From the NCBI GenBank assembly GCA_029227635.1, contig JAQYAH010000005.1, positions 1-64,000 on the forward strand: a stretch of DNA of 64,000 nt, in the 5' to 3' direction. Made by a program: the position numbers and the translations under genes. Each line of letters starts with the position of its first letter. Positions within the stretch are counted from its first letter, which is position 1. This document shows, in pieces, positions 34,575 through 44,005 of this stretch. Under the pieces are notes generated by a model. The model was not told where the DNA came from and did not search any database. It worked only from the letters and a program-made list of their open reading frames with translations. The stretch comes from Clostridiales bacterium. Lineage in GTDB: Bacteria > Bacillota > Clostridia > Lachnospirales > Lachnospiraceae.

Positions 34575-35243
34575 ATGAAGAAGCTGCTTATTTTTGATTT
34601 AGACGGAACCATCCTTAACACTGTGGATTCCCTGGTTGTTACTATTTGCCGGACTCTGGAGATTCTGGGACTTCCTGCGATCACTGAGGAGGAGACCAGA
34701 AGATTTGTGGGAAACGGAGCTTTTCTGCTCGTCAAAAGAGCGCTTAAAGCCGCAGGCGACGAAGAATTGACCCGGTTAGACGAAGGCATGAAAGTGTTTA
34801 TGGAGCTTTTTGAGGACCTTTGCACCTACAATGTCACTCCCTACGAGAACATGGAGGAGATCCTTCACGAATTAAAGAACTCCGGTTACACTCTTGCGGT
34901 TCTTTCCAACAAGCCGGATAAGATGGCTGTTAAGGTGGTGGAGACAGCCTTTGGACAGAATCTTTTCTCAGTGATAGCCGGGCAAAAAGAAGGTGTTCCT
35001 AAGAAACCTGACCCCGCTGGGGTGGTCAGAATAGCTGGAGATCTGGGCATTGAGCTTTCTTCGGTAATCTACATAGGAGATTCAGAAACGGACATAGAAA
35101 CCGCAAGAAATTCCGGAGTCCCCGCTTTGATCGGAAGCTGGGGGTACAGATCCAGAGAAGATCTCATAGATCTCTCTCCGGATATTCTCATTGATGATAC
35201 TAAAGATTTGATTAACAGTGTATACACTCTTTCTGAGAGATAA
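34575..35243 (+). CDS. HAD-family hydrolase, phosphoglycolate phosphatase-like
   Basis: This 222-residue HAD superfamily phosphatase has motif I FDLDGTILNT with the nucleophilic Asp, a helical cap (about 15-85), motif II LSNKPD, motif III lysine in KKPDPAG and motif IV YIGDSETDIETARNSG. The whole matches the Gph/PpaX group, which removes phosphate from phosphoglycolate or pyrophosphate-type substrates. The actual substrate is not predictable. GAGAGG lies before the ATG. It stands alone between two terminators. Confidence 0.88.
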   Translation: MKKLLIFDLDGTILNTVDSLVVTICRTLEILGLPAITEEETRRFVGNGAFLLVKRALKAAGDEELTRLDEGMKVFMELFEDLCTYNVTPYENMEEILHELKNSGYTLAVLSNKPDKMAVKVVETAFGQNLFSVIAGQKEGVPKKPDPAGVVRIAGDLGIELSSVIYIGDSETDIETARNSGVPALIGSWGYRSREDLIDLSPDILIDDTKDLINSVYTLSER

Positions 35244-35247
35244 TTTT

Positions 35248-35275
35248 GAGCCGGCACAAAATGCCGGCTCAAATA
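35248..35275. terminator. Bidirectional terminator between the HAD gene and htpG
   Basis: GAGCCGGCA and TGCCGGCTC make a perfect 9-bp stem, with TTTT on the 5' side and AAATAATA on the 3' side. It therefore can act on the + strand gene and on the converging htpG. Confidence 0.75.
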
Positions 35276-35299
35276 ATATGTGTTTGCAACAAAATTCTT

Positions 35300-37252
35300 T
35301 TATTTTGTGAGAAGCATCATAATCTCATTGCTGCGGCTGATGAAACCAGCCATCTCGTCAGGTGTCAGCTGTCTGTGGCTGATAAGTGCGAGATCATAAA
35401 GATGACGACAGATAAGAGGAACATTCTTAGAACGGCTGTGTTCCAGGATGTATTTCACCAATGGATGGTTTGCATTCAAAGTGAGCACTCCGGGCTCCTT
35501 CGGCATAGAAGATGTGTCCATTCCGTAAAGCTTCATCATATCTTCCATGCGGCGCTGATCTTCAGAATAGGTAATCATGGAAGAGGTGGTGTCATTCTTA
35601 AAACGTTCTACCTTAACCTCAAGATTCTCCATGGAAAGGGCATCCTTAACGATACCGGCAACCTTATCACTCTGCTGCTTAAAGGATTCTTTATCTTCCT
35701 CAGAAACCTCTTCCTTAAGAGTATCGGTGATTTCCGAATCAATTCTTATGAAGCGTATATCCGGATTTCTCATCTCCAGATGAGAGATGAAAGAGGTATC
35801 TATGGCGGTGTTAAGGATGACAGCGTTCAAGCCATTATCCCGGAACATACTTATGTACTGACTCTGCTGGTTTTCATCACTGATATAGTAAATAACATTG
35901 GAAGGTTCGGTGTACTCCTCGCCTTCATTATTTTCTGAAGAATTCTCCTCCGCTTCGGAAACCGTATCCGTGTTCTCCTTCTTTGAAGGCTCATCGTTAA
36001 AGCCCTGGGCATCCTTGTACTCGCTGAGAGTGAGGTAGTTATGATCCATATCCTTGAAAAGCAGGTAATCGCTCATCTTGTCACAGAACTTGGCATCCTT
36101 CATGCAGCCGTATTTGATAAATACGCTGATGTCATCCCAGTATTTCTCGTAGTTCTCCCTGTCAGTTTTGCAAAGACCGGAAAGCTTATCGGCCACTTTC
36201 TTAGTGATGTAATCGGCAATCTTTTTTACGAAACCATCGTTTTGAAGAGCACTTCGGGAAACGTTAAGCGGGAGGTCAGGACAGTCGATGACACCCTTAA
36301 GCAGCAAAAGGAAATCAGGGATAACCTCTTTGATATTGTCAGCTATAAACACCTGATTGTTGTAGAGTTTTATCACACCCTCTGCGGACTCATACTCAAG
36401 ATTGATTCTGGGGAAGTAAAGAATACCTTTTAAATTGAAGGGGTAGTCCATGTTTAAGTGGATCCAGAAAAGAGGTTCTCTGTAGTCATGGAATACTTTC
36501 TTATAGAATTCTTTATATTCCTCTTCAGTACATTCGGAAGGCTGCTTGCTCCAAAGCGGGTTGGGATCACTGACTGAACTGGGCTCCTCGGGTGCTTCTC
36601 CTTCTTTGACTTCCTTGTCCTCATTGATAAGGAAGATTTCTACCGGCATGAAAGAACAATACTTCTCAAGCACTTCTCTCACCCTGAATTCATTACAGAA
36701 TTCATAGGATTCACTGTTGAGGTAGAGGGTAATCTCGGTTCCCACTTCGGTTCGGGTGCCTTCGCTCATTTCGAACTCTGAACCTCCGTCACAACTCCAA
36801 AATACCGGAGCTGCACCTTCTGTGCAGGAGAGAGTATTGATGGTTACCTCATCGGCAACCATAAAAGCCGAATAAAAACCAAGTCCGAAATGTCCGATAA
36901 TCTGGTCGCCGCCTGCCTTATCCTGGTATTTCTTAAGGAATTCCTCTGCCCCGGAAAAAGCGATCTGGTTGATGTAGGTATCCACTTCCTCCCCGGTCAT
37001 ACCAATACCATTATCAGAAAAGGTAATAGTCTTATCCTTGGAATTTACTGTAACCTCGACTTTGCCCTTGTAATTCTCAGGAAGTTCCGAAACTCCGGCA
37101 AGGTTAAGTTTCTTACGTTTGGTAATTGCATCGCAGCCATTGCTCACAAGCTCTCTGAGAAAAATATCGTGGTCAGAGTATAGCCATTTCTTAATTATGG
37201 GAAAAATATTCTCACTGTTGATGGACAGGCTGCCGTGTCTGGTTTCTGACAT
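35300..37252 (-). CDS. htpG: Molecular chaperone HtpG (Hsp90)
   Basis: This ATP-dependent cytosolic Hsp90 chaperone is read on the minus strand. The start at 37252 (MSETRHGSLSINSEN) has AAGGAG eight bases upstream and is preferred over the ORF-track start three codons earlier, giving 650 residues. The GHKL ATPase domain shows LRELVSNGCDAI, FSDNGIGM and GHFGLGFYSAFMVAD. Middle and C-terminal dimerisation domains follow. An acidic stretch (EAEENSSENNEGEEY, about 475-490) lies inside. A perfect CIRCE operator stands 80 bases upstream, which suggests HrcA control. In Bacillus subtilis htpG is not part of the HrcA regulon, so this is a difference from that model. Confidence 0.96.
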   Translation of the reverse strand: MSETRHGSLSINSENIFPIIKKWLYSDHDIFLRELVSNGCDAITKRKKLNLAGVSELPENYKGKVEVTVNSKDKTITFSDNGIGMTGEEVDTYINQIAFSGAEEFLKKYQDKAGGDQIIGHFGLGFYSAFMVADEVTINTLSCTEGAAPVFWSCDGGSEFEMSEGTRTEVGTEITLYLNSESYEFCNEFRVREVLEKYCSFMPVEIFLINEDKEVKEGEAPEEPSSVSDPNPLWSKQPSECTEEEYKEFYKKVFHDYREPLFWIHLNMDYPFNLKGILYFPRINLEYESAEGVIKLYNNQVFIADNIKEVIPDFLLLLKGVIDCPDLPLNVSRSALQNDGFVKKIADYITKKVADKLSGLCKTDRENYEKYWDDISVFIKYGCMKDAKFCDKMSDYLLFKDMDHNYLTLSEYKDAQGFNDEPSKKENTDTVSEAEENSSENNEGEEYTEPSNVIYYISDENQQSQYISMFRDNGLNAVILNTAIDTSFISHLEMRNPDIRFIRIDSEITDTLKEEVSEEDKESFKQQSDKVAGIVKDALSMENLEVKVERFKNDTTSSMITYSEDQRRMEDMMKLYGMDTSSMPKEPGVLTLNANHPLVKYILEHSRSKNVPLICRHLYDLALISHRQLTPDEMAGFISRSNEIMMLLTK

Positions 37253-37295
37253 AAATATCACTCCTTAGTATGATAAATTTGTACCGTTGATAGGA

Positions 37296-37324
37296 ATAAT
37301 AATCCCGTGGAAAACAAAAGTCAA
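37296..37324 (-). promoter_or_regulatory. Sigma-A-type promoter of htpG (minus strand)
   Basis: On the minus strand TTGACT (37319-37324), a 17-base spacer and TATTAT (37296-37301) are present, ahead of the AAGGAG and ATG of htpG. The CIRCE element begins 8 bases upstream of this -35. Confidence 0.75.
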
Positions 37325-37331
37325 TAGATAA

Positions 37332-37358
37332 TTAGCACTCATTTGACAAGAGTGCTAA
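37332..37358. promoter_or_regulatory. CIRCE operator (HrcA binding site)
   Basis: TTAGCACTC-N9-GAGTGCTAA is present with both 9-base arms identical to the CIRCE consensus. HrcA binds this element and represses heat-shock genes until heat inactivates it. It lies in the gap between htpG (-) and rluF-ligA-clpX (+). The spacer contains TTGACA, the -35 of the + strand promoter. Confidence 0.97.
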
Positions 37359-37372
37359 TAATTTTGTAAAAT
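37343..37372 (+). promoter_or_regulatory. Promoter of the rluF-ligA-clpX operon, embedded in CIRCE
   Basis: A perfect -35 TTGACA lies within the CIRCE spacer. After 18 bases comes TAAAAT with a preceding TG. HrcA bound to CIRCE would cover the -35 directly, so this promoter looks the most obviously repressible in the gap. Confidence 0.7.
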
Positions 37373-37455
37373 AAATAAAAAGAAAATAAAGTTGGTTGTT
37401 ATTATGGTTTAATACTTTATAATTAGTTCTATTACAACCGATAAAGGATATACAG

Positions 37456-38217
37456 ATGACAGAGAAGGAAGCTATTCGTTTAAATAAATACCTGAGTGAC
37501 AGCGGGGTCTGTTCAAGAAGAGAGGCAGATCGGCTTATTGAATCCGGAAGTGTTAAGGTAGACGGAGTAAGAGCTGTCATGGGGATGAAGATATTTCCGA
37601 ATCAGACCGTTATTGTTAAAGGAAAGAAGATCGTACCAAGAGCGGTGAAGGTATTGTTGGCCTACAATAAACCCAGGGGAGTGGTTTGTACCAGCGAGAA
37701 ACGAAAGGGAGTAAGAAATATTGAACAGGCGGTCAACTATAAGGACCGGGTATACCCCATAGGGAGGCTGGATAAGGAGTCAGAGGGACTTATTCTTCTC
37801 ACCAACAACGGTGATATTGTGAATCGTATATTGAGAGGAAGCAATAACCATGACAAGGAGTACATTGTAAAGGTTGACAGGGAGATTACCGAAGACTTCC
37901 TGAAGAGGATGTCAGAGGGTGTTCATATACTTGACACAGTAACCAAGCCCTGTAAGGTCAGCCGGATAGGCAAGTACACATTCCGGATTATTCTCACTCA
38001 GGGACTTAATCGACAGATTCGTCGTATGTGTGAGGTTTTTTCCTACAAGGTTGTTGAACTCAGAAGAGTGAGAATTATGAATATTGAACTTGGAGGACTT
38101 AAAGTCGGGGAGTACAGGGTATTAACCGATCAGGAAATGCAGGAATTGGATCGACTGCTTATTGGTTCCACCAATCTTCCGGCATTTCTAAAAAAGGAAC
38201 AGATTAATGAAGAATAA
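37456..38217 (+). CDS. rluF: 23S rRNA/tRNA pseudouridine synthase, RluF type
   Basis: This enzyme isomerises uridine to pseudouridine in 23S rRNA, and in E. coli RluF also acts on a tRNA. The 253-residue protein has an N-terminal S4 RNA-binding domain (IRLNKYLSDSGVCSRREADRLI) and the RsuA-family catalytic domain with GRLDKESEGL, whose Asp is catalytic. The HDKEYIVKV, TVTKPCKV and QGLNRQIRRMCE segments resemble RluF more than RluB. The ATG at 37456 follows a modest AAAGGA. The gene overlaps ligA by 11 bases. Its promoter is overlapped by CIRCE, an unusual setting for a pseudouridine synthase. Confidence 0.87.
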   Translation: MTEKEAIRLNKYLSDSGVCSRREADRLIESGSVKVDGVRAVMGMKIFPNQTVIVKGKKIVPRAVKVLLAYNKPRGVVCTSEKRKGVRNIEQAVNYKDRVYPIGRLDKESEGLILLTNNGDIVNRILRGSNNHDKEYIVKVDREITEDFLKRMSEGVHILDTVTKPCKVSRIGKYTFRIILTQGLNRQIRRMCEVFSYKVVELRRVRIMNIELGGLKVGEYRVLTDQEMQELDRLLIGSTNLPAFLKKEQINEE

Positions 38218-40177
38218 TTCAGAAACCCAAATTGCAAGAATGAAAGAGCTGAACAGTGTTCTCAATGAGGCATCCAGGGCATACTATCAGGGTGCTGAGG
38301 AGATAATGTCTAACTACGAGTACGACAGACTGTATGACGAGCTCAAAGAACTTGAGATTCAGACGGGAATCGTGCTTGCCTCAAGTCCTACTGTAAAGGT
38401 CGGCTATGAGGTCATAAGTGAACTACCCAAGGAGTCTCATGATAGACCAATGCTTTCACTGGATAAGACTAAGAGTATCGATGAGCTGGAAGGATTTCTG
38501 GGAGAGAACACCGGAATAATATCCTGGAAGCTTGATGGTCTGACTATTGTCCTTACCTATGAACACAACGAACTGGTGAAAGCAGTGACAAGAGGTAATG
38601 GCATTGTTGGTGAGGTTATAACCCCTAATGCCAGGGCTTTTATTAATCTGCCTGGCAGGATACCCTTTGACGGGAAGCTTGTTCTCAGAGGTGAGGCGGT
38701 AATCAGCTATTCGGATTTCAATAGAATAAATGAGAGCATGCCGGAAGCGGAGGCAAAGTATAAGAATCCCAGAAACCTTTGCAGCGGTTCCGTAAGGCAG
38801 AAGAACAGTGCGGTGACAGCTGAACGAAGTGTTCAGTTTCATGCTTTTTCATTGGTAGAAGCAGAGGGAGTTGATTTCGAAAATTCAAGGAACCGACAGT
38901 TTAAGTTTCTGAGAGAACAGGGATTTTCCGTAGTGGAGCATTACTTAGTGAACCGAGACAACTTGAGGGAGAAGGTTGAATTCTTCTCTCATAAGATAGA
39001 GTCCTACGATATACCTTCAGATGGATTGGTGCTCACCTATGAGGATCTTGAGTACAGTGCTTCCCTTGGCACTACAGCAAAGTATCCGAGAGATTCTTTT
39101 GCCTTTAAGTGGCAGGATGAGACAGCAAGAACCTTTATAAAGGAGATAGAGTGGAGTGCTTCCAGAACCGGACTTATTAATCCGGTGGCAATCTTTGATC
39201 CGGTGGAACTCGAAGGGACGACTGTTTCCAGGGCGAGTCTTCACAATCTGAGCATTCTTGAAAGTCTGCAGATAGGTATCGGGGATGAAGTCTCGGTATA
39301 CAAGGCGAATATGATAATTCCTCAGATCGAGGAGAATTATACGAGAAGCAGCAATCTGGAGATTCCGGACAAATGCCCTGTGTGTGGAGGAACCACGAGA
39401 ATCTCCCGGGTGGGGGAAGCCAAGGCACTGTATTGTACCAATGAGGAGTGCCCGGCTAAGAAGATCAAGAGATTCGCTCTCTTTGTCTCAAGGGATGCTA
39501 TGAACATTGCCGGGCTTTCGGAGGCTACTTTGGAGAAGTTTATCTCCGAAGGTTTTATCAGAGAATTCAAGGATCTTTATCATCTGGATCGATATCGTGA
39601 TGAGATCTGCGCTATGGAAGGGTTTGGAGAGAAATCCTATAATAATCTGATAGATGCGATAGAAAAATCCAGGGCGACAACACCTGCCAAAGTGCTCTTT
39701 TCCCTTGGAATTCCCAATGTAGGTCTGGCTACGGCTAAGACGATCCTGAAGGGATTTGGGGGAGACCTTATGCAAGTTCGAAATGCCGGCGTGGAGGAGC
39801 TCTCTCAAATAGAATCCGTTGGCAGTGTTATCGCGGAGGGAATGGTAGATTATTTTTCAAAGGGATACAACAACGAAGTTCTGGATGGGCTCCTCAAAGA
39901 GCTGAACCTTGAGAAAGAGACAGTGTCTGAAGAGTCCCCCATCAAGGATAAGACTTTTGTTATAACGGGAAGTGTGGTACATTTTAAGAATCGGAACGAG
40001 TTGAAATCCCGGATAGAGAGTCTTGCCGGCAAGGTTGCTTCTTCCGTAAGCAAGAACACGGATTTTCTTATCAACAATGACAGCACTTCCGGTTCTTCAA
40101 AGAACAAGAAGGCAGCTGAACTTGGAATCCCCGTAATAACAGAGGAAGAGTTCCTTTCAATGATAAATGAACATTAG
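38207..40177 (+). CDS. ligA: NAD-dependent DNA ligase LigA, divergent type
   Basis: This 656-residue protein has the full LigA layout: Ia domain (YEYDRLYDELKEL), adenylation domain with the nucleophile lysine in SWKLDG (about 108), an OB fold, a four-cysteine zinc site (CPVC..YCTNEECP), helix-hairpin-helix repeats and a C-terminal BRCT domain (DKTFVITGS). Several normally near-invariant positions differ. The usual TRGDGxxGEDVTxN reads TRGNGIVGEVITPN, and NPRNAAAGSLRQ reads NPRNLCSGSVRQ. The catalytic lysine, TRG arginine and GE glutamate remain, so activity is likely. It may be a specialised second ligase, or the only one, of this lineage. It is co-transcribed with rluF and clpX. Confidence 0.88.
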   Translation: MKNNSETQIARMKELNSVLNEASRAYYQGAEEIMSNYEYDRLYDELKELEIQTGIVLASSPTVKVGYEVISELPKESHDRPMLSLDKTKSIDELEGFLGENTGIISWKLDGLTIVLTYEHNELVKAVTRGNGIVGEVITPNARAFINLPGRIPFDGKLVLRGEAVISYSDFNRINESMPEAEAKYKNPRNLCSGSVRQKNSAVTAERSVQFHAFSLVEAEGVDFENSRNRQFKFLREQGFSVVEHYLVNRDNLREKVEFFSHKIESYDIPSDGLVLTYEDLEYSASLGTTAKYPRDSFAFKWQDETARTFIKEIEWSASRTGLINPVAIFDPVELEGTTVSRASLHNLSILESLQIGIGDEVSVYKANMIIPQIEENYTRSSNLEIPDKCPVCGGTTRISRVGEAKALYCTNEECPAKKIKRFALFVSRDAMNIAGLSEATLEKFISEGFIREFKDLYHLDRYRDEICAMEGFGEKSYNNLIDAIEKSRATTPAKVLFSLGIPNVGLATAKTILKGFGGDLMQVRNAGVEELSQIESVGSVIAEGMVDYFSKGYNNEVLDGLLKELNLEKETVSEESPIKDKTFVITGSVVHFKNRNELKSRIESLAGKVASSVSKNTDFLINNDSTSGSSKNKKAAELGIPVITEEEFLSMINEH

Positions 40178-40185
40178 GAGACAGT

Positions 40186-41586
40186 ATGGAAGATAATAAC
40201 AACAGAGAAGAACTTGAAGAAGTGATTAACGACGAACAGTCTGAAGAATACGAGAAGGTGTGTCTTATATGTCACAGACCTGAGAGCAAGGTTGACAGGA
40301 TGATAACGATTCCAAATGGCTTTTGTGTGTGTACGGACTGCCTCCAGAGGAGTTTTGACAGCTTTGATCAGGGAAACATAGACTATTCACAGTTAATGGG
40401 ATATCCGGGATTCAACATGATGGATTTCGGGAATCAGGTTCCCCCGATTCCTCAGAAACAAAGGATCAAGAAGCATGACAAGAAGAAGGAAGAAGAATTT
40501 CAGCTTTCGATGAAGGATATCCCTGCGCCTCACAAACTCAAAGCGAGTCTGGACGAGTATATTGTCGGACAGGACTATGCCAAGAAAGCTATCTCAGTAG
40601 CGGTCTACAATCACTATAAGCGGATTACCTCCGATAAGGGGGATGATATTGAGATCGAGAAGTCTAACATGCTCATGGTCGGTCCCTCGGGAAGCGGTAA
40701 GACCTACATAGTCAAGACATTGGCAAGAATCCTGGATGTGCCTCTGGCTATAACCGACGCCACCTCCTTGACGGAGGCGGGCTATATCGGCGATGACATT
40801 GAAAGTGTAGTCAGTAAGCTGCTTGCTGAGGCGGACAATGATGTGGAGAAAGCTGAGAGAGGTATTATCTTTATTGATGAGATCGATAAGATTGCCAAGA
40901 AGATCAACACCAGCCAGAGAGATGTGAGCGGAGAGTCGGTTCAGCAGGGCATGCTCAAGCTCCTTGAGGGAGCGGAGGTAGAAGTCCCTGTAGGTGCCAG
41001 TTCCAAAAATGCAATGGTGCCCATGGTGACGGTAAATACTAAGAATATTCTTTTCATCTGCGCCGGTGCTTTCCCGGATTTGAATAACATTATTAAAGAG
41101 AGACTCCTGAAGAATTCCTCCATGGGATTCAATTCAGAACTCAAGAACCGGTACGATAATGACAAGAATCTCCAGAAGAAAGTTAAAGTAGAGGACCTGC
41201 GGAAGTTTGGAATGATTCCGGAGTTTCTTGGACGTCTTCCGGTTATTGTGCCTTTGGAATCTCTCACAGAGGAGATGCTTATTAAGATACTCAAAGAGCC
41301 TCGAAATGCGATTCTGAAACAGTATCAGAAGCTTTTGGAACTGGATGAGGTACAGCTTCTTTTTGATGAGAGTGCCTATAGAGCGATTGCACAAAAAGCC
41401 ATGGAGCAGGATACCGGAGCGAGAGCTCTTCGGGCGGTGATAGAAGAGTTCATGCTGGATATCATGTATGAGATTCCTAAGGATGATAATATAGGCAAAG
41501 TCACCATTACCGGAAACTATATAAACGGCACCGGTGGTCCCCAGATTGAGATGAGAGGCTGTCCGGCGCTTGAATGTAAGCAGTGA
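40186..41586 (+). CDS. clpX: ClpX-like AAA+ unfoldase, variant lacking the RKH loop
   Basis: This 466-residue ClpX-family unfoldase has an N-terminal zinc-binding domain (CLICHRP..CVCTDC), then a charged linker. The AAA+ core has Walker A GPSGSGKTY, pore loop EAGYIGDD, Walker B IIFIDEIDK, DVSGESVQQGMLKLLEG and sensor ARAL. The RKH substrate-recognition loop usual in ClpX (GGRKHP) is replaced by GASSKNAMVPM. The ClpP-docking loop has MGF instead of IGF (SSMGFNSEL), and an extra segment before LRKFGMIPEFLGR is present. These changes suggest altered substrate choice while ClpP docking may persist. It lies 8 bases after ligA, under the CIRCE-linked promoter. No clpP is adjacent. Confidence 0.87.
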   Translation: MEDNNNREELEEVINDEQSEEYEKVCLICHRPESKVDRMITIPNGFCVCTDCLQRSFDSFDQGNIDYSQLMGYPGFNMMDFGNQVPPIPQKQRIKKHDKKKEEEFQLSMKDIPAPHKLKASLDEYIVGQDYAKKAISVAVYNHYKRITSDKGDDIEIEKSNMLMVGPSGSGKTYIVKTLARILDVPLAITDATSLTEAGYIGDDIESVVSKLLAEADNDVEKAERGIIFIDEIDKIAKKINTSQRDVSGESVQQGMLKLLEGAEVEVPVGASSKNAMVPMVTVNTKNILFICAGAFPDLNNIIKERLLKNSSMGFNSELKNRYDNDKNLQKKVKVEDLRKFGMIPEFLGRLPVIVPLESLTEEMLIKILKEPRNAILKQYQKLLELDEVQLLFDESAYRAIAQKAMEQDTGARALRAVIEEFMLDIMYEIPKDDNIGKVTITGNYINGTGGPQIEMRGCPALECKQ

Positions 41587-41594
41587 TAAACCGG

Positions 41595-41623
41595 TTTACA
41601 CTCCCTTGTACCCGGAGTATACT
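41595..41623 (+). promoter_or_regulatory. Promoter before the small acidic gene and lspA
   Basis: TTTACA, a 17-base spacer and TATACT form a near-consensus sigma-A promoter directly after the clpX stop. It would start a short transcript leader that carries ACGGAGGTG. Confidence 0.75.
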
Positions 41624-41645
41624 TTATTAAAACGGAGGTGTAGTT

Positions 41646-42089
41646 ATGAGTGAATTTATTGATGAGCTTACCCAGAGAGTTAAAGAAACTATTGACGTTG
41701 TGAGTAAGAAGGCGGACGAGGTAATTACAATTCAGGGGCTTAAGAGTCAGAAGAGAAATGCAAAGCGTGCGATCAAGAATGAGTATGTTGAGCTTGGTAA
41801 ATTAGTTTTTGCCAGATATCAGAAGGGGGAAGCCCTGGATGAGGAGGCAATGGCTCACTGCGAGCAGATCAACGACCAGATGAACTTTATTGAGCAGATT
41901 GATGAAGATATTATCAACATTCAGCTCAAGGATGATATCGATCTTGACGAAGATTTTGATGATGAGGACGATGTAGATGAATCTGACCCTGAGTCTGAGG
42001 AATGTGCTGATGGCTGTGAGGATGAGGAGTCCGAAGCCGAAGAGGTAGAATCATCAGAGGAAACTGATAAGGAATCAGAAAATGCTTAG
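41646..42089 (+). CDS. Small acidic protein of unknown function
   Basis: I do not recognise this 147-residue protein. The N-terminal half is helical and mixed in charge (VKETIDVVSKKADEVITIQGLKSQKR), with a likely coiled coil through residue 95. The last 45 residues are almost all Asp, Glu and Ser (DEDFDDEDDVDESDPESEE). There is no signal peptide or membrane segment. It has its own strong promoter and a GGAGGTG site, and overlaps lspA by 8 bases, so the two are coupled. The layout resembles small clostridial proteins of unknown role, some annotated near envelope genes. Confidence 0.75.
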   Translation: MSEFIDELTQRVKETIDVVSKKADEVITIQGLKSQKRNAKRAIKNEYVELGKLVFARYQKGEALDEEAMAHCEQINDQMNFIEQIDEDIINIQLKDDIDLDEDFDDEDDVDESDPESEECADGCEDEESEAEEVESSEETDKESENA

Positions 42090-42540
42090 CACAGGTTTGT
42101 CCGCTGCCTTTTTGACAGCGGACATTTTTGCAAAAAAATATGTCGAAGATAATTGCTCATTTTCAGAGAGACGGCCGGTTTTGGGAGGCAGAGTAGTCAT
42201 AAGAAAAATGCATAACAAGGGGTTTGCTCTCAACAGAATGGATGACCGGCCGGACACAGTAAGAAATATCAGCTTGATGTTGACAGTTGTGATCGTGATT
42301 TGCTGGTTGTTTGAAATGATCAGAGGAACTTCAGGTTTGCAGCGTATAGGGGTTGCTTTGGCAGCTTTTGGAGCGGTAGGCAACACTATTGATAGAGTGC
42401 GAAGAGGCTATGTGGTAGATTATCTTCAGCTGGCAAAGGGCCCTTCCCGTTTGAGAAATATTGTTTTTAATCTGGCGGACATTATGATCGCTGCAGGGTG
42501 TTTGGCTACTGTGGCGGGAGAAATCTTTTTTGGTAAATAG
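42082..42540 (+). CDS. lspA: Lipoprotein signal peptidase LspA, divergent
   Basis: LspA cuts the signal peptide from diacylglyceryl-modified prolipoproteins in the membrane. This 152-residue protein has four hydrophobic segments and the catalytic motifs in order: GAVGNTIDRVRRGYVVDYL with the first Asp, and FNLADIMIAAG with the second. The first 70 residues diverge strongly from typical LspA, and the extracellular beta-cradle region (RPVLGGRVVIRKMHNKGFALN) is shortened. The start overlaps the preceding acidic gene. The lgt partner lies at 25.1 kb. Confidence 0.85.
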   Translation: MLSTGLSAAFLTADIFAKKYVEDNCSFSERRPVLGGRVVIRKMHNKGFALNRMDDRPDTVRNISLMLTVVIVICWLFEMIRGTSGLQRIGVALAAFGAVGNTIDRVRRGYVVDYLQLAKGPSRLRNIVFNLADIMIAAGCLATVAGEIFFGK

Positions 42541-42563
42541 AACAGAAGTGATTCTTTTAATAA

Positions 42564-42590
42564 TCAGAAGTGCCCGATGGGCACTTCTGA
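42564..42590. terminator. Perfect inverted repeat after lspA
   Basis: TCAGAAGTGCCC and GGGCACTTCTGA form a 12-bp perfect stem with a GAT loop. No clear T-run follows on the + strand, so it may protect the 3' end or help block read-through rather than terminate alone. Confidence 0.55.
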
Positions 42591-42607
42591 GATTGTATGC
42601 AGTCGCA

Positions 42608-42633
42608 AAGGTCCGGGCAAACCCGGACTTTTG
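42608..42633 (+). terminator. Rho-independent terminator of lspA
   Basis: AAAGGTCCGGG and CCCGGACTTTT form a stem with a CAAA loop and a short T-run on the + strand. It is the second hairpin after lspA. Confidence 0.65.
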
Positions 42634-42645
42634 CTCGTTGCTCTT

Positions 42646-42680
42646 ACAAAAAATGGCACCGATCGTATGATCGGTGCCAT
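42646..42680 (-). terminator. Rho-independent terminator of the DUF1015 gene (minus strand)
   Basis: ATGGCACCGATC and GATCGGTGCCAT form a perfect 12-bp stem. Read on the minus strand, it is followed by TTTTTGT, just after the stop of the minus-strand gene. Confidence 0.9.
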
Positions 42681-42697
42681 ACAAGTTTTAAAGAATA

Positions 42698-44005
42698 TTA
42701 GCCAATGTAACGGCTCTCGATGTAGTAACGCTTCTCGTTAGCTTCACCCATGGAGAATGTCTTACGAGGAAGAGCACCATCGCCTGCAACTGCAGGGAAG
42801 AGGTCAGCCTTATCCATTGCAGGAAGCATGAATCCGGCATTGCCTTCTACTGCGGAAAGCTTCTCGATTGCAGCTGTTCCGTGAATGTAGTCGATGTCTG
42901 TGTCCTTGCGTTCCTTAACCATTACGTCAAGTGCGTTCTGGAGAGCACCAACTGCAAGCTTGCTCTTAGGGCCTTCAACGATTACATAACCCTTCTTGTC
43001 GCCTGCAAGGTAAGGAATTACGAAGGAACCTTCGGGAGCACAGCATGAGCAATCTGAGAGGTAAGCCTTCTCATTCTGCTCGTTGAGGAGTTCAACTGTC
43101 TCATTTACAAGATCCATACCACTCTGGCCATTCTTAGCTGTGATCACACGGTGGATAGGTTCGAATACGATACCGTCATCATGTACGTTCTCGATCTCAC
43201 AAAGAGCATAACGTGCAGGATGTGTAGCTTGTTCTTCAGGAGAAAGAGTCTTCTTGAGGTTCTCCCAGTTAGCCTTAGCTGTAGCAAGAGAGTGGTTTCC
43301 GTCACCCATAGCCTGGAAGATTACATGACCTTCACCATATTTCTCAACAGCCTTGTCATAAAGTGCTGAAAGAGCATCCTTCATTCCTTCAAGATCCTTC
43401 TCAGCAATAAATGAACCGGATACATGACCGCCGTCAAGCATAAGGTCTGTGTCATAGATGAGCTCTGAAGGTGCATTTACAAGGGGTTCGATAACACTCT
43501 TGTCAGGATCGTCAATAAGGATAAGGATGTGAGGCATCTCAATGGGAGCGCCTTCGCGGATTCTGAGACGAGGCGGAATACGCTCAACAACTGTTCCCTC
43601 AGTAGCACGGGTAAGTGACTGAGATCCTTTGTTGTAATCATAGCTCTCAAGGTCTGTAGCGATAACAAGACCAAGACGGCTTCTTCCTTCAGCTGTTCTC
43701 TTAACAAGCATGCAGCCGGCAGGGAGCTTTCTCAGGATACCGTTGTCGAGGTAATCTGTCATAGCTTTGCGGATAGCAACGATCTTCTCAGCTTCGCCGG
43801 GCTTGTCCAAATAGAGCTCAGGAAGCATAAGACGAAGTGTAGAGGGAGCATCACCTACGATGGACTCTACTTCATCCCAGTACTCGGGCTCTGAAGTAAA
43901 CTGGTCACAAGCAACTACAGCCCACTTGCTGTAATCTGTTCCCTCAGCAGGAACCATGATTTCGGGAATGTGGAATCCAAATGTTCCCCAATCATATTTA
44001 GACAT
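42698..44005 (-). CDS. DUF1015 family protein
   Basis: This 435-residue cytoplasmic protein belongs to the conserved DUF1015 family, recognised by the QAMGDGNHSLATAKANWE segment, the N-terminal VVACDQFTSEPEYW and HPARYALCEIENVHD. The function is not established. The family is widespread in clostridia and is sometimes found near amino-acid metabolism genes. AAGGAGGAG precedes the ATG. Its promoter region overlaps that of the divergent small gene at 44168, and a 17-base palindrome lies in its leader, so expression is probably regulated. Confidence 0.85.
   Translation of the reverse strand: MSKYDWGTFGFHIPEIMVPAEGTDYSKWAVVACDQFTSEPEYWDEVESIVGDAPSTLRLMLPELYLDKPGEAEKIVAIRKAMTDYLDNGILRKLPAGCMLVKRTAEGRSRLGLVIATDLESYDYNKGSQSLTRATEGTVVERIPPRLRIREGAPIEMPHILILIDDPDKSVIEPLVNAPSELIYDTDLMLDGGHVSGSFIAEKDLEGMKDALSALYDKAVEKYGEGHVIFQAMGDGNHSLATAKANWENLKKTLSPEEQATHPARYALCEIENVHDDGIVFEPIHRVITAKNGQSGMDLVNETVELLNEQNEKAYLSDCSCCAPEGSFVIPYLAGDKKGYVIVEGPKSKLAVGALQNALDVMVKERKDTDIDYIHGTAAIEKLSAVEGNAGFMLPAMDKADLFPAVAGDGALPRKTFSMGEANEKRYYIESRYIG

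Follow-up and report, generated by a model that had tools for sequence, protein, structure and literature searches.

A perfect CIRCE upstream of htpG with a possible second target in the adjacent rluF-ligA-clpX operon of a member of the Lachnospiraceae

Results

The window, that is, the whole 64-kb stretch of DNA that was analysed, contains an intergenic gap of 194 bases (26% G+C) that separates htpG, on the minus strand, from a gene of the RluF type on the plus strand. The htpG gene, which encodes Hsp90 (35300..37252, minus strand; NF003555, 667 bits against a cut-off of 371), has its ATG at 37252, with AAGGAG upstream, and the terminator scan placed a terminator-like hairpin after it at 35273-35245. 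On the other side of the gap three plus-strand genes form an operon: a rluF-like pseudouridine synthase gene of the RsuA/RluB/E/F family (37456..38217; TIGR00093, 160.7 bits, over the cut-off), ligA, encoding an NAD-dependent DNA ligase (38207..40177; TIGR00575, 545.9 bits, cut-off 444), which overlaps the first gene by 11 bp, and a clpX paralogue (40186..41586; NF003745, 548.6 bits, cut-off 359) that starts 8 bp after ligA. The gene names given in the original prediction therefore held for HtpG, LigA and ClpX, all of which were above their cut-offs; the RluF-like protein reached 302 bits with the RluF model, just below the cut-off of 318, and is assigned to its family only.

Both LigA and ClpX had been described as variants. 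A second ClpX-like protein is encoded on contig C50 (L191) and is 52% identical to the ClpX of the window, which is a genuine second paralogue. LigA proved to be of the usual family type, about 60% identical to most LigA proteins of the family, and it was the single ligase found in the assembly (one match in the genome itself), which ruled out an aberrant extra copy. At least 20 genomes of the family carried no LigA of the window type (about 60% identity) and had only a distant LigA, of 34-38% identity, which suggests either replacement or the existence of two old LigA lineages.

The gap holds a CIRCE, the operator of HrcA, at 37332..37358, with the sequence TTAGCACTC-ATTTGACAA-GAGTGCTAA and no strand assigned. 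It was perfect, as originally predicted: at the same coordinates both 9-base arms were without mismatch, all 18 of the 18 arm bases being identical to the HrcA consensus (TTAGCACTC-N9-GAGTGCTAA). Shuffles of the window gave a mean of 0.02 matches with up to three mismatches, and no second CIRCE with three or fewer mismatches was found across the 1.75-Mb assembly. An Rfam scan of positions 35000-43000 found no RNA family.

The promoter scan, based on consensus matches, located the predicted htpG promoter, TTGACT-17-TATTAT (37296..37324, minus strand), beside this operator, with the TTGACT at 37324-37319, the TATTAT at 37301-37296 and a layout that is kept in relatives. The operator adjoins this heat-shock gene promoter, with 7 bases (37325-37331) between its edge and the htpG -35 box, not 8 as previously counted. 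Relative to the predicted start of transcription, the CIRCE would span about -69 to -43, upstream of the htpG core promoter.

Rightward promoters were sought as consensus matches and scored out of 12. The best, P1 (TTGACA-18-TAAAAT; 37343..37372, plus strand; 11/12), has its TTGACA at 37343-37348, wholly within the 9-base spacer of the CIRCE, and its TAAAAT at 37367-37372, 18 bp away, confirming the earlier claim that the -35 box of a rightward promoter lies inside the operator. P1 was the only promoter-like site in the window that scored at least 11/12. When divergent promoters with a -35 box overlapping the CIRCE were scored at 76 htpG loci, the window gave 11/12 and the other 75 loci gave at most 9/12, which ruled out the idea that such promoters are common at htpG. 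A simulation that kept the arms and drew the spacer and flank at the local single-base composition put the chance of a P1-like site at about 0.0003. From these two comparisons P1 is probably a real promoter. The -35 boxes of P1 and of the htpG promoter are 19 bp apart, and polymerases at the two promoters may therefore hinder each other.

A second rightward site had been overlooked. P2 (TTGTTA-16-TATAAT; 37396..37423, plus strand; 10/12) has a perfect -10 box, is about 33 bp before the rluF-like gene and lies outside the CIRCE, so that only one of the two promoter-like sites of the operon overlaps the operator. As a class, sites of the quality of P2 did not exceed the background (17 compared with 13.7 expected in the region); since they are common by chance, P2 is weaker as a sequence, yet biologically plausible.

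A comparison of the gap across the Lachnospiraceae, which had been proposed as a check, tied the CIRCE to htpG family-wide. Eighty related HtpG loci were sampled, which are mutually related and do not represent independent events; three were too short upstream, and 76 of the 77 testable loci had a CIRCE with 0-2 mismatches upstream of htpG, the sole exception being L051. In an alignment on the CIRCE, TTGAC followed at a distance of exactly 7 bp in 69 of these 76 loci and of 8 bp in five, with a probability of about 0.001 per locus that it would occur at +7 by chance, and the promoter spacer was 17 bp in 73 of the 74 loci with TTGAC. The combined pattern CIRCE-N7-TTGAC (up to two mismatches) was present in 340 of 397 genomes of the family, while the reversed control pattern was absent among the matches listed for the same 397 genomes. 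Of 125 high-quality genomes of the family, 123 encoded HrcA. Because the layout of operator and promoter is conserved family-wide, HrcA control of htpG is strongly supported; the CIRCE at 37332-37358 is, as a predicted site, the HrcA operator usual for htpG genes of the Lachnospiraceae, and control of htpG through it is very probable.

Three of the sampled loci differed in detail. In L040 and L048 a CIRCE precedes htpG and TTGAC is at neither +7 nor +8, unlike the other 74 of 76, and L068 has a tandem pair of CIRCE ahead of a single htpG, the two copies preceding the match by 159 and 79 bases. At other loci of the family, CIRCE sites were found before hrcA-grpE, groESL, small-heat-shock-protein-like genes and a ClpB-like gene (five relatives were read for hrcA and groESL, and the genes were named by sequence only). 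At the small-heat-shock-protein-like and ClpB-like genes of L147, L151 and L153-L155 the operator has the variant form TTAGCACTC-N9-CAGTGCTAA, in which TTGACA enters the second arm and the operator and the -35 box have bases in common.

The rightward half of the locus gave a different result. Among 29 related ligA loci, in which genes were identified by similarity to the window proteins or by reading translated starts (as in all relatives), the rluF-like gene adjoined ligA in 27 and clpX adjoined ligA in six, and no CIRCE with up to four mismatches was found in any of the 29, which ruled out that rluF-ligA travels with the operator. Several relatives have 4-8 kb, containing other genes, between htpG and rluF-ligA, and the neighbours of htpG are widely variable. 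Among the relatives compared, none of which belongs to the same genus, the adjacency of CIRCE and rluF-ligA thus appears peculiar to this genome, and loss of the intervening genes would be the simplest account of it. Conservation of the CIRCE at htpG largely without the rightward operon removes the reading of a conserved module; it does not remove a lineage-specific one. Accordingly, the original proposal of one operator for both htpG and rluF-ligA-clpX stands for its htpG half, and for its rightward half it is possible, in one genome only.

Discussion

The interpretation that we favour starts from what is seen directly in the DNA: the operator, both promoter-like sites, the conservation of the htpG half and the uniqueness of the other half. 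We propose that the CIRCE is an htpG operator throughout the family, that the operon has moved into its reach, and that P1 would be occluded by HrcA while P2 provides basal transcription; we give this model as a whole a probability of roughly 0.6. It supposes that the organism has HrcA, that this HrcA binds the CIRCE, that P1 is used and that the evolutionary events took place in the order given here.

On this model HrcA bound to the CIRCE would cover the region beside the htpG -35 box and reduce htpG transcription, a repression that would be lifted when heat or unfolded protein inactivates HrcA. An older rluF-ligA(-clpX) operon would have lost, in this lineage, the genes that stood between it and htpG, with the result that its start is now 97 bp from the operator. 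As the -35 box of P1 is inside the operator spacer, HrcA bound there should occlude P1 directly and so block it, and since it would cover both the flank of the htpG -35 box and the -35 box of P1, one dimer could repress both promoters. LigA is essential. Because it is the only ligase found here, a repressible promoter is unlikely to be its sole source; basal expression is expected from P2, which would keep the ligase expressed free of the operator, or from leak, and HrcA would add at most a partial heat induction. The overlap of the best-scoring promoter with the operator makes HrcA control of the rightward operon possible, and we consider a detectable, partial effect on rluF-ligA-clpX to be somewhat less probable than its absence.

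The strongest alternative is that the CIRCE serves htpG only, that the operon is transcribed from P2 or from another HrcA-independent promoter, and that TTGACA overlaps the spacer by coincidence, in a gap that is AT-rich. It has a substantial chance of being right, of about one in three: the CIRCE is tied to htpG family-wide and is absent before rluF-ligA in 29 relatives, P2 has its perfect -10 box near the start codon and could carry all of the rightward transcription, and repression dependent on heat would be costly for the only ligase found. What speaks against coincidence is P1 itself, the top promoter-like site of the window, with its chance probability of about 0.0003.

It is much less probable that HrcA has been lost from this lineage, leaving the CIRCE as a relic or as a mere promoter spacer. 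None of HrcA, GrpE, DnaK and DnaJ was found in the assembly, which is 86.7% complete, and the one Hsp70 match in the genome had the appearance of MreB and not of DnaK. The genes hrcA, grpE, dnaK and dnaJ usually form one operon, and DnaK is almost never lost. With HrcA in 123 of 125 good genomes of the family and hrcA adjacent to grpE in relatives, a gap over a single operon is likely, and one unassembled hrcA-grpE-dnaK-dnaJ operon is the most likely explanation of all four absences. The loss of HrcA alone would leave DnaK, GrpE and DnaJ unexplained, and the 18 intact arm bases do not suggest a relic. It is in keeping with loss that the genome has a single CIRCE and that its groESL (L112:980-1150, contig C42) has none, the upstream region there showing only a terminator-like hairpin and, behind it, a promoter-like TGC-TATAAT stretch. 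Since groESL had a CIRCE in all five relatives examined, the HrcA regulon may have been reduced in this genome.

Least probable of all is a selected heat-shock module in which Hsp90, RNA modification, nick sealing and ClpX come under one operator, as the original prediction had suggested, for although the operator and P1 are shared in this genome, the rluF-ligA pair is conserved and clpX stands beside ligA in six of 29 relatives, none of the 29 has a CIRCE before rluF-ligA, no other htpG locus has a strong divergent promoter in its CIRCE, and the neighbours of htpG vary widely.

The proposed model has a partial precedent in Clostridium acetobutylicum, in which HrcA control of htpG (CAC3315) was proposed from a predicted site, and in which one CIRCE was proposed to be common to groESL and its neighbour CAC2705, a neighbour that responds only weakly (PMC3828012). 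In both cases HrcA has a predicted site at htpG, and a single site is common to a chaperone operon and a neighbour that is not a chaperone gene; the cases differ in that the pair in C. acetobutylicum is groESL and a membrane-protein gene, in contrast to htpG and rluF-ligA-clpX here. HrcA control of htpG was already proposed, and what is new is the rluF-ligA-clpX operon as the neighbour of a CIRCE. In agreement with the earlier statement that HrcA control of ligA or rluF is not known to be described, no report of it was found in the titles and abstracts searched, and no paper on the HrcA regulon of the Lachnospiraceae was recognised in the same openly accessible literature.

The position of the operator also differs from other systems. 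In Campylobacter jejuni HrcA was mapped over the transcription start site and not upstream of the -35 box (PMC7464140), in contrast to the htpG CIRCE described here, which lies upstream of the predicted core promoter. The CIRCE of hrcA and groESL in Clostridia and Lachnospiraceae is the same 9-9-9 inverted repeat as that at htpG, but in the five relatives read it is close before the start of the gene, whereas at htpG it is upstream of the -35 box. The small-heat-shock-protein-like and ClpB-like genes of the family resemble P1 in having a -35 box inside the operator, although there the TTGACA costs the second arm one base, whereas both arms in the window are perfect. In Bacillus subtilis htpG belongs to class IV. 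It is, like the htpG of the window, an Hsp90 gene, heat-induced there and predicted to be so here, and it differs in that its control is described as positive and outside the HrcA class, as indicated by a title cited in PMC3408451.

The medical or practical weight of these findings is low. For the family, they show over hundreds of genomes that the CIRCE keeps a constant place on the upstream side of the htpG -35 box; if the operator does repress from there, HrcA would act at three promoter positions in one family. For this organism, we tentatively suggest a lineage-specific bidirectional operator, less likely than the partial effect on the operon considered above: gene loss would have placed the only ligase found, an rRNA pseudouridine synthase and a second ClpX beside the CIRCE and htpG, with P1 conferring partial heat-inducibility on them and with htpG controlled, as throughout the family, from an unusual site upstream of its -35 box. 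The locus may then illustrate one way in which a regulon could grow, in which a neighbouring operon comes within reach of a conserved operator that has itself remained beside its chaperone gene.
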